Below are positions 11,684 to 30,402 of a stretch of DNA of 64,000 bases, in pieces (within the stretch, counting starts at the first letter, position 1; each line of letters begins with the position of its first letter). The notes below the pieces were generated by a model. It searched no databases and was not told where the DNA came from. It saw only the letters and a list, made by a program, of their open reading frames with translations. The DNA comes from a virus. A program made the translations under genes and the position numbers. The stretch covers positions 1 through 64,000 of IMG/VR virus record IMGVR_UViG_3300047476_001057. One strand, 5' to 3'.

Positions 11684-11707
11684 TCCTTATTCCAGGTTAA
11701 GCTGGTG

Positions 11708-12122
11708 TGGAGGTGGTGGGAATCGAACCCACGTCCAATAAAGAAGACAACAAGTAAAACGTCTCACATGCTTAGTACTGACTATTACTTGTCTACTACC
11801 GTTAAAGTGATAGTACAAGGTTCATCTGCACCGTAAGAGCTGACCGTATTATGGTCCGATCCACCACCTGGTTTTAGCTATCAAGTGTGAAACCAGGAAA
11901 GTCCACTATACTTGCTCTTTCTGTTGCCAAGCCGAGCAGGCTCCGTAGGTTAGGCAGCGATAGCTACTTCACCGAAGAGAGATGCAAGAATTGCATCACC
12001 TTCTGCTACACGGTCAGACTGTGTCATGCCGTTTATTGTTTGCAGTTTGTTTAAGGACCACTTCTACCAAAGGTCCGCATGTTTACTTGCCTCTCGCTCT
12101 ACTGTCGAAACCAGGCACCCCC
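11708..12122 (-). ncRNA. ssrA: tmRNA (transfer-messenger RNA)
   Basis: The 5' end GGGGGTGCCTGGTTTCGACA and the 3' end GTGGGTTCGATTCCCAC + CACCTCCA form the tRNA-like domain, with a 7-bp acceptor (one G-U pair) and a perfect T-arm. The 415-nt spacing is normal for tmRNA. CCA is not encoded in the usual place, so host processing is needed. Inside is a tag frame ending ...LFGEVAIAA with TAA at 11952-11950. Bacteroidota tags usually read GE-x-x-YALAA, so GEVAIAA is a shortened or diverged version; the exact resume codon is not clear. It follows the stop of 12126-12443 by 3 bp, so it is likely cut from a common transcript. It would tag proteins on stalled ribosomes. Confidence 0.93.
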
Positions 12123-24376: not shown

Positions 24377-25112
24377 ACAACCTTTTGAAGCAGATAAGAT
24401 AGCAGAAAAATCCGCTAAGAATAAAAAAAGCAAATGGTATGGTATGACGCCTCAGGCTATAAAAGATGCCTGGAAAGCAGAAGCCAACCGTGCAACTACA
24501 CTAGGTACATGGTACCACAACTGCAGAGAACAAGACTTGTGTGCATTGGAAACAATAGACCGTTCAGGTGTAACGGTTCCTATTGTAAAGCCTATTGAAT
24601 TAGAAGGCGTCAAATACTCCCCTGATCAGAAGCTCAATGATGGAGTGTATCCCGAGCACATGGTTTATCTGAAATCAGCAGCACTTTGTGGGCAGTCAGA
24701 CTTAGTTGAAGTGGTCAATGGATATGTAAATATTACAGACTACAAGACTAACAAAGAAATCAAGAGTGAGGGATTTACCAACTGGGAAGGTATTACTACC
24801 AAAATGCTACCACCAGTGCATCATCTTGATGACTGCAATCTTAATCACTACACACTGCAGCTTAGCCTGTATATGTACATTATTCTTAAACACAATCCCA
24901 AACTAAAGCCTGGAATACTCACCATTCATCACATTATGTTTGAAGAGGTGGATAAGGACAAGTTTGGTAATCCAATTACTGCCTTGGATACCAACGGTGA
25001 TCCTATTGTAAAAGACATTGTGCAATATGATCTGCCTTATATGAAACAAGAGATAATGTCACTACTACATTGGTTAGAAGACAATCGACATAAACTGAAA
25101 CCCAAAAGCTAA
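24276..25112 (+). CDS. PD-(D/E)XK nuclease (RecB/Cas4-like)
   Basis: I chose the ATG at 24276 (MILRFTPQDHKYTSIK); a TTG at 24264 is less likely. The 278-aa protein has the RecB-like order. Helix with GTWYHNC (His motif) near residue 82 is followed by GQSDLVEVVNGYVNITDYKTNK (Asp and D-x-K catalytic pair, about 143-165) and NHYTLQLSLYMYI (Gln-Tyr motif, about 192-204). It would cut DNA with metal. In phages such enzymes act in recombination or host-DNA degradation. Its stop overlaps the PhoH start (TAATG). Confidence 0.88.
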   Translation: MILRFTPQDHKYTSIKPEDQQDWVSVTSFIGNFKQPFEADKIAEKSAKNKKSKWYGMTPQAIKDAWKAEANRATTLGTWYHNCREQDLCALETIDRSGVTVPIVKPIELEGVKYSPDQKLNDGVYPEHMVYLKSAALCGQSDLVEVVNGYVNITDYKTNKEIKSEGFTNWEGITTKMLPPVHHLDDCNLNHYTLQLSLYMYIILKHNPKLKPGILTIHHIMFEEVDKDKFGNPITALDTNGDPIVKDIVQYDLPYMKQEIMSLLHWLEDNRHKLKPKS

Positions 25113-25759
25113 TGAAAGAACCCAATCGTGTACGTAAGAATGAAATCAAGTTTGGCGTACAGTTAAATGAAGAGCAGAAAGAAGCCAAACAGTTGATAAG
25201 AGAAAATCAAGTGGTGGTGATTACAGGAAGAGCAGGATGTGGTAAGTCATTAGTTTCTGCACAGGTGGCTCTGGACTTTTTATTCCAGAAACAGATTCAG
25301 CAGATCCTGGTTACAAGAGCCACTATAGAAGTGGGTAACTCCCTTGGACTCTTACCTGGTTCTTTAGAAGACAAGTTTAATCCTTACTTGGAAGCATTCG
25401 TAGAGAACCTTCAGAAATGTGTAGACAAAAACCGAGTTGCACAGATGGTCAGTGAACAACAAGTGAGTGCAATGCCGGTGCAGTTTATTCGTGGTAAAAC
25501 CATAGATGATGTACTTATTGTAGAAGAAGCCCAGAATCTGACCAAAGCACAGATGCTGGCTATTCTTACACGTCTTGGTAAAACAGGAAAGATCATTATT
25601 AACGGGGACAATGAGCAGAAAGATATTAAGGATGAGTATAACGGATTGTCTTATGCTATTGAGCTTTCTAAAAAGATCACAGAAATAAAGTGGATCAAGT
25701 TAAAAGAAAACCATAGGTCTGACCTGGTAGGAAAGATCTTAGAATACGAGTATAAATGA
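25112..25759 (+). CDS. phoH: PhoH-like ATPase
   Basis: The 215-aa protein has a P-loop VVITGRAGCGKS (about 34-45). A Gln/Arg motif ILVTRATIEVGNSLGLLPGS (the PhoH signature stretch after Walker A), a Walker B DDVLIVEEAQN (about 132-142) and an Asn-Gly-Asp element IIINGDNEQKDI complete the family pattern. Length is close to single-domain PhoH. PhoH proteins hydrolyse ATP and are linked to RNA metabolism. Phage copies are common and their benefit is unclear. It overlaps the next gene by 4 bp. Confidence 0.93.
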   Translation: MKEPNRVRKNEIKFGVQLNEEQKEAKQLIRENQVVVITGRAGCGKSLVSAQVALDFLFQKQIQQILVTRATIEVGNSLGLLPGSLEDKFNPYLEAFVENLQKCVDKNRVAQMVSEQQVSAMPVQFIRGKTIDDVLIVEEAQNLTKAQMLAILTRLGKTGKIIINGDNEQKDIKDEYNGLSYAIELSKKITEIKWIKLKENHRSDLVGKILEYEYK

Positions 25760-26430
25760 GAGTGGTGTTTGACCATATCAACGGTTTTGGAAAGGTGAGT
25801 GACCAGGATTTCATTTACTCCCAACCTTATGGAGAACTGGAGCCAGGTGAATCAGCCGAGCAAGCACTTGAGCAGGGATGGATTCCCTGGGATGGATCCT
25901 GGTATAACCTACGTTCGGTAAGGATAGATGTTGCTTTATACAAACCACATGAAACTACCCGCAGGCTGGCCAAGAAAGTCCAGTGTAAGTATAAAAAGTT
26001 TGAGGACAAACCTATCTACAGGGAGCTGTATCAGAAGTATTGTGACTACCACGGGTTTGAAAGAACGATTACCTGGGAACAGTTATTTACTGGTGACATG
26101 ATTGCCTACTACGTAGATGAAAACATAGTGGGTTATTCTAACATTGAACGATACGGATCTGCACTGGTAGCTACGCAGTTTGTCTGGGACTATGAAGAGC
26201 CCAAGTTATCTCTTGGAAAAATTGCCCAGATGTACGAGTGTGAAACCGCAAAATCTTTAGGATGCACACATGTGTACATACTGGGTGGATATGAAGAATG
26301 TTGTTTGTATAAATCAGACTTCTACGGGTTTGAATGGTGGACCGGAAGAGGATGGCTTCAAGACAAAAAACTTTATAAAGAACTCTGTAAAAGAGATGAA
26401 AAAGCGGTGGTAAGTTATGACGATATATGA
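25756..26430 (+). CDS. Arginyl/leucyl-tRNA-protein transferase-like protein (ATE/Bpt fold)
   Basis: The 224-aa protein resembles the aminoacyl-tRNA:protein transferases of the N-degron pathway. Key matches are a SVRIDVALYKPHETTRRLAKK segment (about 54-74; family P-x-x-x-x-RR), LYQKYCDYHGFE (about 91-102) and the C-terminal GNAT-like core VWDYEEPKLSLGKIAQMYECETAKSLG with YILGGYEECCLYKS. The core mirrors the ATE pattern 'LSLG...E...A..lG...YYlGYyI..c..M.YK'. Such enzymes move Arg or Leu from a tRNA onto protein N-termini, marking them for ClpS/ClpAP. The N-terminal Cys cluster of ATE1 is absent, so substrate is unclear. A leucine-type tRNA gene lies 1 kb downstream. Confidence 0.72.
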   Translation: MRVVFDHINGFGKVSDQDFIYSQPYGELEPGESAEQALEQGWIPWDGSWYNLRSVRIDVALYKPHETTRRLAKKVQCKYKKFEDKPIYRELYQKYCDYHGFERTITWEQLFTGDMIAYYVDENIVGYSNIERYGSALVATQFVWDYEEPKLSLGKIAQMYECETAKSLGCTHVYILGGYEECCLYKSDFYGFEWWTGRGWLQDKKLYKELCKRDEKAVVSYDDI

Positions 26431-26611
26431 ACCTGTGAACCGAGTAGAAGTGAGTACACCCAAAGGTGATGGGATCATCTGGCTTGTGACGGACTATGGA
26501 CATGAAACAAACACTATTTATACCGTGATTATAGATGCTACCGGTGAGTTCTGGCAGTTTACACACCAGGACATAAGAGCTAAGAAGAACATAACATTTG
26601 GAAGAACATGA
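26417..26611 (+). CDS. Small beta-rich protein (64 aa)
   Basis: The 64-aa product begins MTIYEPVNRVEVSTPKGDGIIWLV and continues with strand EFWQFTHQDIRAKKN. It fits a small SH3/Tudor-like barrel. It overlaps the preceding gene by 14 bp and the following one by 4 bp, so it is well embedded in the operon. Function unknown. Confidence 0.65.
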   Translation: MTIYEPVNRVEVSTPKGDGIIWLVTDYGHETNTIYTVIIDATGEFWQFTHQDIRAKKNITFGRT

Positions 26612-27120
26612 TTAGATTATTTGATATACAAAATGGAAAGGTGACAGCTTCAGAACATTGCTATACGCTGAAGTTTTTAAAGGATATTATGGATGAGTAT
26701 CCGGATGAACATTTACGGATATATGCGTATCTGTTTTACATGACTTGTCCTAATCCTGATCTTAATCCATTTTTTGATGTACCAGAACGGGATAAAGAGG
26801 AAATTATTTTACAAGAGGTGGATGCAGATTTTTCTACAGATGATGAACTAATCACACATGCTATAAAAAGATGTAAACAGTTGTATGAAACTCCAACATA
26901 TAGAGCATATGAAGGCATTAAAGTGGCTTTGGATAACATGGCCAATTTTATGAGAACTGAAACAGTAACATCTGGACGTGACGGATCAGCCACCGCTATT
27001 TTAAGAATAGCTGAACGATTTGACCAGGTGAGGCAATCTTTTAAAGGTGTTTATAGAGACCTGATGGAAGAACAACAATCACAAGTAAGAGGAGGACAAA
27101 ACCTAGCATATGATCAATAA
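26608..27120 (+). CDS. Hypothetical protein (170 aa), possible small-terminase position
   Basis: The 170-aa product is acidic and helical (TLKFLKDIMDEYPDEHLRIYAYLFY and AYEGIKVALDNMANFM). The C-terminal coiled segment is ATAILRIAERFDQVRQSFKG. It lies a few genes upstream of the large terminase. Many phages carry a small terminase there, but an N-terminal HTH is not visible, so I do not call it one. It overlaps the SNase gene by 11 bp. Confidence 0.68.
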   Translation: MIRLFDIQNGKVTASEHCYTLKFLKDIMDEYPDEHLRIYAYLFYMTCPNPDLNPFFDVPERDKEEIILQEVDADFSTDDELITHAIKRCKQLYETPTYRAYEGIKVALDNMANFMRTETVTSGRDGSATAILRIAERFDQVRQSFKGVYRDLMEEQQSQVRGGQNLAYDQ

Positions 27121-27454
27121 CCTACATCACTACAGAGCAACTGTTACACGAATTTTAGATGGAGACACCGTAGAATTAGTAATTGACCTGGGCTTTACGG
27201 TTCAATGGAAATCTACCTGCAGACTCTTTGGTATTAACACTCCAGAACTGACAAGCAAAGACCCGCTAATTCGTGCTAAAGCACTAGAAGCAAAACAGTA
27301 TTTGATAGACAAGCTACCGCTAGGTGGCCAGGTGTATATCAAAAGCCGTGAGCTAGATAAATACGGAAGACCACTAGCAGATTTATATTATGCTGCAGAG
27401 TTTAAACATATTAACAAAGAGCTGCTTGACCTAGCACTAGCAGTGAAAATGTAA
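27110..27454 (+). CDS. Staphylococcal-nuclease-like thermonuclease
   Basis: The 114-aa protein is a compact SNase domain. It has the TVTRILDGDTVELVIDLGF start and CRLFGINTPEL (catalytic Arg and Glu pair, about 42-52). ESRELDKYGRPLADLY-type sequence (SRELDKYGRPLADL, second Arg) follows at about 85-98. It lacks a signal peptide, so it would act inside the cell on DNA or RNA. Its last five bases overlap the acceptor of the class II tRNA at 27450. Confidence 0.92.
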   Translation: MINNLHHYRATVTRILDGDTVELVIDLGFTVQWKSTCRLFGINTPELTSKDPLIRAKALEAKQYLIDKLPLGGQVYIKSRELDKYGRPLADLYYAAEFKHINKELLDLALAVKM

Positions 27455-27553
27455 GGTGGTGGAACTGGCAGACACGCTACCCTGTCTCGGTGGTGCTCTC
27501 TTAGCGGTTTTTGAACCACGGAGAGTTTGGACGTTCGACTCGTCCCCTTACAG
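27450..27553 (+). tRNA. Class II (leucine-type) tRNA with GUC-like anticodon loop
   Basis: TGTAAGG (27450-27456) pairs with CCTTACA (27546-27552). The D-arm GTGGAACTGGCAGACAC is of tRNA-Leu type. The anticodon stem CTACC/GGTGG closes a loop CTGTCTC, which would read GAC (Asp) as anticodon GUC and has U, not a purine, at position 37. A 35-nt variable region folds as CTCTC...GAGAG with an inner GGTT/AACC stem, longer than normal. The T-arm GGACG-TTCGACT-CGTCC is canonical. CCA is not encoded. Since LeuRS mostly ignores the anticodon, it may be charged with Leu. Confidence 0.8.
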
Positions 27554-27576
27554 CTTAACCAATTAAAACCATACAC

Positions 27577-27873
27577 ATGGAAACGATGGATTTCGGTGGA
27601 GCTATCAAAGCTCTGAAAGCAGGTCAGAAAGTAGCACGTACAGGATGGAACGGTAAGAATATGTTCCTGACACTGGCAGGTGGCTACTCCATTCCTAAAG
27701 ACAAACTCAGACCAGGTACGCACATCACTGCTGAGTTTTTAGAAGCTCGTGGTGTAGATGAGATGGTCATCGTACCACATATTGACATGTGGACTGCTCA
27801 AAACAACTATGTATCCGGTTGGCTTGCATCTCAGACAGACATGTTAGCTGAAGACTGGATAGTAATAAACTAA
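27577..27873 (+). CDS. DUF2829 protein (Tad2-like anti-Thoeris candidate)
   Basis: The 98-aa protein has the DUF2829 pattern: MDFGGAIKALKAGQKVAR-TGWNGKNM at the start, a central PHIDMWTAQNNYVSGWLASQ and a terminal EDWIVIN. Some members of this family (Tad2) are tetramers that sequester the cyclic ADP-ribose signal of Thoeris defence. Other members are uncharacterised, so anti-defence is an inference. It has its own short leader after the tRNA. Confidence 0.88.
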   Translation: METMDFGGAIKALKAGQKVARTGWNGKNMFLTLAGGYSIPKDKLRPGTHITAEFLEARGVDEMVIVPHIDMWTAQNNYVSGWLASQTDMLAEDWIVIN

Positions 27874-27941: not shown

Positions 27942-28208
27942 ATGAAAAATGAAGTTTACACAGATCTTGAACCGTTTTCTACAGAACACCCTAGTGGACC
28001 TCGGAGTGCTCTTTACGATTTTGTCTTCCATTTTAATCCTTACACTAGCCTCTGGTCTGCTATTCATCGTGATGATTATCTGCAGTATTGGAGTGATGGC
28101 AGTCATTCCCGTGTTATTCGTAGTAAATCTGTTGATACTCTTCAGGAAATTATTATAAAGACAGGCGGAGTGTTGAGTAAAATAGAACAGTTGACCCGTG
28201 AGCAGTAA
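27942..28208 (+). CDS. Small protein upstream of terminase (88 aa)
   Basis: The 88-aa product contains FHFNPYTSLWSAIHRDDYLQYW, SRVIRSKSVDTLQEII and a short acidic start. This soluble, aromatic sequence is typical of small phage proteins encoded just before terminase genes; role unknown. It starts behind an AATCCCAACCT leader and overlaps the terminase GTG by 11 bp. An alternative hydrophobic frame (27949-28158) overlaps it and is considered less likely. Confidence 0.7.
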   Translation: MKNEVYTDLEPFSTEHPSGPRSALYDFVFHFNPYTSLWSAIHRDDYLQYWSDGSHSRVIRSKSVDTLQEIIIKTGGVLSKIEQLTREQ

Positions 28209-30402
28209 CATTTATAAAGAGGTTCCTACTTACGACAATGGTCAGTGGACAGTTACTACGTTTTATACCCGGGAAGAGTTCCGGGATTTTGTGTTGTTCC
28301 TGTTCAAAGAGCCTGGTCAGTATAACTTTGATGAAACCACCCGGATCTTCAATGCAGAAGGACGTAAGTTTCAGAAACAAGGATACTATTGTAATGCTCC
28401 TATTAAGAGTAAGGACTTCATTGCCTACTGGGATGACCAAAAAAACAAATGTCGCAACGGTATTATTGTAAAAGGAAACGGAAACACCTGGTTTGTTCCC
28501 AGGGATTACTATATGTGGCTAAACTTTCTTCCCATCTATGACAAGGAAGAAAAACGTTTTGACTTTGCTAAGGTGAGAGATGCCCAGTATCACATGGCAC
28601 TCTATGAACACCTGGCTGAACTGCACTACAAGCATGCTGTTATTTTAAAGAAACGTCAGATAGCCTCTTCTTATTTCCATATGGCTAAGCTGATCAACCA
28701 GTGGGTGTTTGAAGCAGGTTCTATTTGTAAGATTGGTTCTTCTTTAAAAGACTACATTAACGAGAAAGGATCCTGGAAGTTTCTCAATGAGTATAGAAAC
28801 TTCTTGAATGAACACACTGCTTGGTATAGACCAGCAGAACCGGACAAAGTGTTTGCCTGGGAACAGAAGATCAAGGTGCGTATAAATGGTCGTGATACAT
28901 ATAGAGGATTAAAGAGTACCATCAACGGATATTCATTTGAAAAAGATCCTACCAATGGTGTCGGTGGACCGGTTACTTACTTCTTTCATGAGGAAGCAGG
29001 TATTGCTCCTAAAATGGATGATACATATGGATTCATCAAACCTGCACTGAAATCTGGTCACATCATTACCGGTCAGTTTATAGCTGCAGGATCTGTGGGT
29101 GATCTGGACCAGTGTGAACCGATGAAAGAGTACATCATGCACCCGGAAGAAAACGGGTTTTATGGTGTAGAAAGTAGTTTATTAGATAAGGACGGTACGA
29201 TTAGTATAACTGGTCTGTTTATACCAGAGCAATGGAGTATGCCTCCTTATATAGATGATTATGGTAACTCTAAAGTGGAAGAAGCTCTGGCTGCTCTTGA
29301 TGCACAGTTTGAAAAAGCTAAGCGTGATCTTGCACCTGAAGCTTATCAGTTAGAAGTATCACAGCATCCTCGTAATATAGAAGAAGCATTTGCTACCAGA
29401 AAGGTGAGCGTGTTTCCTCCACATTTACTTAGTAAACAACTGCAGCGTATATCAGATAAAGTTTATCCCGTAGAATATCTTGATCTGTCAAGAAATGCAG
29501 AAGGAAAGATTATTGATAAACCAAGCAGAAAGATAGCTATATCAGAGTTTCCCATTTCTAAGAAGACAGAAGATAAAGAGGGAGTAATATGTGTGTATGA
29601 ACGACCTGCTAAAGATCCCACGTTTGGTATGTATTACGCTTCTGTGGACCCAGTAGGAGAAGGTAAGACTACAACTTCAGACTCTTTATGTGCTATTTAC
29701 ATATACAAAAACCCAGTAGAGGTTATTAAAGACCATGGTAATGGACAAATAGAAAACCATATAGAGCGTGACAAAATAGTTGCATCCTGGTGTGGGAGGT
29801 TTGATGATCTTAACAAAACCCATGAACGGCTGGAGATGCTCATAGAGTGGTATAATGCCTGGACAGTGGTCGAAAATAACGTAGCCCTGTTTATCCAGTA
29901 CATGATTTCTAAAAAGAAGCAGCGTTATCTGGTACCCAAGGACATGATCTTATTCCTAAAAGACATTGGTGCCAACCGCAACGTGTTCCAGGAATACGGG
30001 TGGAAAAACGTAGGTACTCTGTTTAAGGGAACCATCCTGTCTTATGGGATTGAGTTTTTAAAAGAGGAGCTGGATCACGAGACCAAAGCAGATGGAGAGA
30101 TCGTCAAGACTATCTATGGGGTGGAACGTATACCTGATCCTATGCTTTTAAAAGAGATGCAGGCTTATCAGGATGGTGTGAACGTGGACCGGTTAGTAGC
30201 TTTTTGTGCCCTGATAGCTTTTGCTAAGGTACAGCAGTCCAATAGAGGTTTTACTAAACGTGTAGAAGTTACAGATAAAAAGTTGGATAACTCCCAGAAA
30301 TTTAGTAAATTAAATTGGGGGCCTTTTAGACACATGGGCTCTTCTAAAGGAAGGTCTATAGGTATGCAAAAACCTAGAAACCCTTTTAAAAATCTTAGTT
30401 AA
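28198..30402 (+). CDS. terL: Large terminase subunit
   Basis: The 734-aa packaging motor starts at a GTG. The ATPase domain has a Walker A-like VILKKRQIASSYFHM (about 148-162), a Walker B TYFFHEEAG (about 260-268) and a coupling motif near IITGQFIAAGS. The RNase H-fold nuclease shows an Asp in YASVDPVGEGK (about 481), a Glu in VVENNVA (about 557) and an Asp in VDRLVAF (about 662). The P-loop lacks the usual G-K-S/T (it reads A-S-S), which is unusual. Length agrees with crAss-like terminases (about 700-780 aa). It sits directly before the portal region. Confidence 0.92.
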   Translation: MSSNIYKEVPTYDNGQWTVTTFYTREEFRDFVLFLFKEPGQYNFDETTRIFNAEGRKFQKQGYYCNAPIKSKDFIAYWDDQKNKCRNGIIVKGNGNTWFVPRDYYMWLNFLPIYDKEEKRFDFAKVRDAQYHMALYEHLAELHYKHAVILKKRQIASSYFHMAKLINQWVFEAGSICKIGSSLKDYINEKGSWKFLNEYRNFLNEHTAWYRPAEPDKVFAWEQKIKVRINGRDTYRGLKSTINGYSFEKDPTNGVGGPVTYFFHEEAGIAPKMDDTYGFIKPALKSGHIITGQFIAAGSVGDLDQCEPMKEYIMHPEENGFYGVESSLLDKDGTISITGLFIPEQWSMPPYIDDYGNSKVEEALAALDAQFEKAKRDLAPEAYQLEVSQHPRNIEEAFATRKVSVFPPHLLSKQLQRISDKVYPVEYLDLSRNAEGKIIDKPSRKIAISEFPISKKTEDKEGVICVYERPAKDPTFGMYYASVDPVGEGKTTTSDSLCAIYIYKNPVEVIKDHGNGQIENHIERDKIVASWCGRFDDLNKTHERLEMLIEWYNAWTVVENNVALFIQYMISKKKQRYLVPKDMILFLKDIGANRNVFQEYGWKNVGTLFKGTILSYGIEFLKEELDHETKADGEIVKTIYGVERIPDPMLLKEMQAYQDGVNVDRLVAFCALIAFAKVQQSNRGFTKRVEVTDKKLDNSQKFSKLNWGPFRHMGSSKGRSIGMQKPRNPFKNLS

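Follow-up and report, generated by a model that had tools for sequence, protein, structure and literature searches.

A tRNA-like RNA with a GUCUC loop in a phage genome and in Bacteroidota chromosomes, a candidate non-decoding tRNA

A phage genome fragment encodes, just upstream of its large terminase gene, a tRNA-like RNA that belongs to an apparently undescribed family, the GUCUC-loop RNAs, found in viral contigs and in Bacteroidota chromosomes. We interpret the RNA as a non-ribosomal tRNA that would be charged, most likely with aspartate, would not decode, and in the phage would supplement the corresponding RNA of the host. Amino acid and function are deduced from sequence, and we give this reading an even chance of being correct.

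The phage locus and its tRNA-like RNA

The window, the whole stretch of 64,000 nt analysed here, comes from a 126,629-base IMG/VR virus record, in which the large terminase and the portal were assigned to PHROG families. The gene set and the links to Bacteroidota fit a crAss-like phage, which it may be. Only two Rfam matches at gathering score were found in the window, a tmRNA and a tRNA (Table 1); this tRNA and the GUCUC-loop RNA are the only tRNA-like genes seen in the 126-kb record. The predicted tag of the tmRNA, GMTQSDRVAEGDAILASLFGEVAIAA, is long for a tag.

Table 1. Features of the window discussed in the text
Position	Strand	Feature	Basis
11705-12122	-	phage-encoded tmRNA	Rfam gathering score
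13491-13605	-	115-nt tRNA with long extra stretch	Rfam, 42.9 bits; missed by ARAGORN
25112-25759	+	PhoH-like ATPase gene; overlaps start of transferase gene	Pfam PhoH, E 3.2e-52
25756-26430	+	ATE_C-type tRNA-dependent aminoacyltransferase-like protein, 224 aa, without ATE_N	Pfam ATE_C, AlphaFold, Foldseek
26417-26611	+	small conserved ORF after transferase gene	ORF reading, relatives
26608-27120	+	170-aa conserved protein between transferase gene and RNA slot; weak, sub-cut-off DUF6808 match	
27110-27454	+	staphylococcal-nuclease-like gene; stop codon within 5′ acceptor strand of the RNA	Pfam SNase, E 2.8e-7
27450-27554	+	tRNA-like RNA, GUCUC-loop family, 7/5 class II cloverleaf	sequence reading, family covariation, model R1
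27577-27873	+	Tad2-like (Thoeris anti-defence) gene immediately 3′ of the RNA	Pfam Tad2-like, E 1.1e-24
28198-30402	+	large terminase gene	PHROG terminase, E 1.4e-68

The initial annotation described a class II tRNA with a leucine-type D-arm, a CTGTCTC loop and a 35-nt variable region, and a complete 7/5 cloverleaf confirms it. In the acceptor stem, UGUAAGG (27450-27456) forms a perfect helix with CCUUACA (27546-27552), followed by G73 at 27553 and an encoded C74 at 27554. The nuclease gene upstream has its stop codon inside the first of these strands. The D-stem is GUG/CAC, the anticodon stem CUACC/GGUGG encloses the loop CUGUCUC (27482-27488), the variable region runs from 27494 to 27528, and the T-arm is GGACG-UUCGACU-CGUCC. 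Despite the Leu-like D-arm the discriminator is a G, unlike the A of Leu tRNAs. U33 is present, and the pyrimidine already reported at position 37 is a U.

ARAGORN in default mode misses the RNA. With the -i option it calls Glu(ctc) with a 13-nt intron, a call that we rejected, since covariation across the family supports the class II fold without an intron. Rfam 15 gave no match over the RNA at gathering score and, up to E 10, nothing covering it; a single partial overlap, at E 6.3, is put down to chance. The family covariance model R1 scores it at 91.7 bits, the same sequence being part of the model's training set.

In relatives, too, the RNA slot closely precedes the large terminase gene, and the syntenic RNAs there have diverged with the loop retained. 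An ordinary tRNA-Leu(CAG) replaces the RNA in the same slot in L012-L018, and in L020-L024 an ordinary Met or Cys tRNA stands beside it. A 'tRNA-OTHER' annotated in the Streptococcus phage phiARI0462 (L322, 546-629) also has a Leu-like D-arm and a similar placement, shortly before a terminase gene; at 29.6 bits it falls outside the family.

A conserved RNA family in Bacteroidota and their phages

The search pattern consisted of the 5′ acceptor strand and the D-arm only, with a T-loop and closing stems required at extraction. Loop, discriminator, variable region and T-arm sequence lay outside it, and the conservation of the loop and the discriminator is therefore independent evidence. The pattern matched 112 viral stretches and at least 120 bacterial stretches. 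Viral contigs and Bacteroidota chromosomes together supply at least 184 distinct full-length sequences of the family. Searches of GenBank phages added one real member, a complete one, from the 636-kb phage LR756504. A match in MT835737 proved to be an ordinary Leu-type tRNA outside the family, and matches in pneumococcal phages have the T-arm alone in common with it.

Among the matches listed, U35, C36, G73 and C74 are invariant (184/184). Position 38 is C in 181 of these 184 sequences and A in 2, position 37 is a pyrimidine in 181 and U in 177, and position 34 is G in 168, A in 11, C in 4 and U in 1. U33 is kept in 154 and lost in 30. The ordinary tRNAs of the same loci have U33 in 95/98 and a purine at 37 in 96/98. 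The suggestion in the initial annotation of a non-translating tRNA thus gains from the family as a whole, almost all of which has the pyrimidine 37 of the phage RNA. The anticodon is GUC or AUC in 179/184 of the matches listed and a Leu anticodon in none. An atypical yet decoding tRNA for GAC/GAU, tolerant of U37, would agree with these anticodons and with the intact elbow, acceptor and T-arm; set against ordinary tRNAs, of which 3 and 2 of 98 depart from the rule at positions 33 and 37, the altered loop makes this reading improbable, as do the insertions in the D-loop and variable arm.

Over 30 family sequences, paired cells reach 99.0% compared with 87.9% after shuffling, and the covariation score is 0.407 compared with 0.174, a value of 0.407 being reached in 0/500 shuffles. 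The architecture is 7/5 (7-bp acceptor, 5-bp T-stem). Covariance model scores are 66-96 bits in the viral loci tested and 68-110 in hosts, and ordinary Leu-type tRNAs score up to about 58 bits. Among the matches listed, the variable region ranges from about 7 to 106 nt; one member (L301, 77 nt) lacks the long variable arm, and others, some with a D-loop hairpin, reach ~175 nt. ARAGORN calls short-armed members tRNA-Asp, and databases may list some of them as such. Pairing of the anticodon loop with the variable arm, which has GAGA in some members, was rejected by eye, as the arm sequence does not follow the loop. A class I tRNA-like gene with the loop CTGTCTA (L128) again combines GUC with U37, on another body.

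In three syntenic phage RNAs (L004, L021 and L024) a hairpin inserted in the D-loop shows UGUCUC again in its own loop; from L004 to L021 the stem of this hairpin changes and the loop is constant. The bacterial variable arm contains a conserved internal-loop motif, GGAUAAAC ... GCUAAC. Both features would suit an uncharged regulatory or scaffold RNA, in which the tRNA fold serves as stable scaffold and processing handle and the UCUC loop is directed at GAGA-type targets or a protein, and so would the stricter conservation of UCUC at 35-38 than of position 34. We nevertheless regard such an RNA as rather unlikely: invariant G73 and C74 and a perfectly kept acceptor would be needless if it were uncharged, and the 77-nt member indicates that the variable arm is dispensable.

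When 198 Bacteroidota genomes were sampled with the family covariance model, 29 matched at E 1e-10. Four of the seven weakest matches (55-58 bits) were read and all four were ordinary Leu tRNAs. About 22/198 genomes therefore hold the family, and with the strict filters applied this is a minimum. Record titles among the matches listed include Pedobacter, Fulvivirga, Aquirufa, Hymenobacter, Sporocytophaga and others, with up to 4 tandem copies; the RNA was not found in plasmids. The initial annotation had envisaged a phage-specific system, which does not agree with a chromosomal gene in many Bacteroidota.

To judge from sequence, the bacterial RNA genes usually stand behind their own Bacteroidota-type promoter. 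The element TAnnTTTG occurs within 80 nt upstream in 79/107 regions (shuffled mean 6.4) and the full TTTG...TAnnTTTG in 40/107, both among the matches listed. An Lrp/AsnC gene, the family assignment having been checked on one member, lies divergently upstream in 88/120 bacterial loci among the matches listed, with a spacing of 116-212 bp in 84 of the 88. Genes that look suf-like lie beyond it in some loci. By eye, hairpins with T-runs follow many copies, and conserved trailers stand between RNA and terminator-like hairpin, for example in L144, L149 and L165 (GGGTTAATGTTGTTTAT; TTTAGGTTTATAATTGGTTAG). In L264 and L284, also bacterial, a 109-nt member lies in tandem with one of 141-145 nt whose acceptor strand is UGUUGGG.

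Phage tRNAs are known to counter anticodon nucleases and other tRNA-cleaving defences, and the phage RNA might likewise be a decoy or replacement. Its loop resembles the CUGUCAC of textbook tRNAAsp with one change, at position 37, and a Tad2-like gene is its neighbour. That gene adjoins the RNA in close relatives only, however, and the RNA did not arise as a phage decoy, because it is a chromosomal gene of the hosts at a conserved place. A decoy or replacement role consequently seems to us a poor explanation.

The ATE-like protein and its relation to the RNA

The assignment of the upstream ORF, open over 224 aa, to an ATE/Bpt-like protein holds. It matches Pfam ATE_C at 31.6 bits (cut-off 25, E 2.8e-7), and a Pfam scan at E up to 1 found no ATE_N domain with its cysteine cluster. 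In a sequence search against solved structures ATE1 came first but weakly (E 0.12). An AlphaFold model built with 12 relatives as input is of moderate confidence (mean pLDDT 66, pTM 0.70). With this model Foldseek ranks ATE1 structures first (E 2.5e-7 to 1.5e-6, prob 1.00, TMq about 0.5), the best being human ATE1 (8tzv, E 2.5e-7), followed by MprF/lysyl-PG synthases and FemX, all tRNA-dependent aminoacyltransferases. Placement in the ATE / tRNA-dependent GNAT transferase group is thus well supported by sequence match and model, and transfer activity is predicted. Like the ATE1/Bpt arginyl-/leucyl-tRNA-protein transferases, the protein has the ATE_C domain and fold and retains the SLG motif followed by the Y-K region. 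Unlike them, it is 224 aa long without ATE_N, and it aligns with short ATE-like proteins of Bacteroidota (21-27% identity, best E 9e-6). Close relatives were found in 27 viral loci by protein search, and none in GenBank phages or bacterial contigs at the search sensitivity used.

The initial annotation proposed that the RNA is a dedicated donor, of leucine or another aminoacyl group, for this transferase. The two genes lie 1 kb apart on the same strand, the enzyme has an ATE-type fold, and the pair does recur. Among viral loci with a terminase or 170-aa neighbour, 22 have RNA and transferase, 57 the RNA only and 15 the transferase only. The counts are rough, as the loci are fragmentary and there are duplicates among the contigs. 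No ATE_C gene was found in 21 further RNA-bearing viral records of 24-137 kb. Conversely, two transferase-bearing records (G005 and G027) hold no family RNA and two others (G003 and G004) an ordinary Leu tRNA only, although these records may be incomplete. In hosts, an ATE_C gene is present in 10/27 RNA-bearing genomes and 3/17 others (one more below cut-off), leaving 17/27 RNA-bearing genomes without it. Because the genes so often occur apart in both phages and hosts, we rejected a dedicated pair, and a dedicated donor is highly improbable; for leucine, G73 also speaks against LeuRS. The ATE-like enzyme would be a separate gene that may use the GUCUC-loop RNA or ordinary charged tRNAs, and in phages with both genes the charged RNA could serve the transferase. 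Host Aat (PF03588) occurs more often in genomes lacking the RNA, so there is no sign of an Aat-RNA link.

Charging, decoding and known systems

The main identity elements of AspRS are G34-U35-C36, C38 and G73, LeuRS needs A73, and decoding tRNAs have U33 and a purine at 37. The phage RNA contains the complete AspRS set and, with U37, departs from the decoding signature. Of the features of tRNA-Leu it has the D-arm and the class II variable arm, and has neither A73 nor a Leu anticodon. The leucine charging supposed initially is unlikely because G73 is invariant (184/184 among the matches listed) and the anticodon loop, not required by LeuRS, is strongly conserved. An AspRS set that is kept while the decoding rules are broken is the pattern of a charged but non-decoding RNA. 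Some observations do not follow from a strict AspRS reading, namely A34, C34 or U34 in 16 and A38 in 2 of the 184 matches listed. The E. coli tRNAAsp elements G10 and C2-G71 are not kept either, with A10 in 13/30 and G2-C71 throughout 30 family sequences. SerRS charging could also be possible for a class II body with G73. Since U37 is conserved far beyond what a block to decoding needs, the UCUC of positions 35-38 may have another binding partner; a binding loop stays a candidate alternative in view of this strictness of U37, the exceptions at G34 and the additional UGUCUC hairpin.

In the charged, non-decoding reading that we prefer, a tRNA-derived RNA family would belong to Bacteroidota, and phages would have acquired members. 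The RNA would be processed and CCA-tailed like a tRNA and charged by the host aspartyl-tRNA synthetase through G34-U35-C36, C38 and G73, while pyrimidine 37 and the U33 variants would exclude it from decoding. It may then be used outside translation as an aminoacyl donor or a charging-dependent regulatory RNA, potentially under amino-acid-responsive (Lrp-type) control, and the phage copy in the tRNA slot before the terminase gene would supplement the host RNA. Amidation to Asn is conceivable because of U1-A72 and because a GatB gene is present in 27/27 RNA-bearing genomes tested but in 13/17 others. In a fuller proposal, tentative and more doubtful than likely, many Bacteroidota would reserve an Asp-tRNA for non-ribosomal use as donor or sensor, perhaps amidated to Asn and co-controlled with an Lrp/AsnC regulator, and crAss-like and huge phages would supplement it.

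A synthetase-type identity set without decoding features would suggest that aminoacyl-tRNA has a use outside translation that is yet to be explored. The family spans several Bacteroidota orders and their phages and has probably been overlooked because standard tRNA finders miss members with long variable arms. It is directly testable in culturable hosts such as Pedobacter, which often carry tandem copies. We found no description of the family, its loop signature, its variable arms or its phage carriage in Rfam 15 or the open-access literature searched.

Non-translating tRNAs as such are already known. The Bacillus cereus pseudo-tRNA tRNAOther was reported to be non-functional in translation and to affect cell physiology, and is likewise a tRNA-shaped chromosomal RNA apparently outside translation (PMC3399842). 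Staphylococcal tRNAGly species with altered loops are used in cell-wall synthesis, and resemble the present RNA as isoacceptors reserved for a non-ribosomal transfer, a role here presumed (PMC8007984). They have Gly identity and serve the Gram-positive cell wall, to neither of which the GUCUC-loop RNA is assigned. tRNAOther, for its part, belongs to another lineage and another genomic setting, and we know of no GUCUC loop or Lrp-linked locus for it. The allo-tRNAs are likewise unusual in form and have a long variable arm and, in some cases, a GUC anticodon (reviewed in PMC7609411), but their acceptor branches are 8/4 or 9/3, whereas the GUCUC-loop family is 7/5. Bacterial tRNAAsp shares G34-U35-C36, C38 and G73 with the GUCUC-loop RNA; it has a class I body with U33 and A37, in contrast to the Leu-like D-arm, U1-A72, pyrimidine 37 and mostly long variable arm described here.
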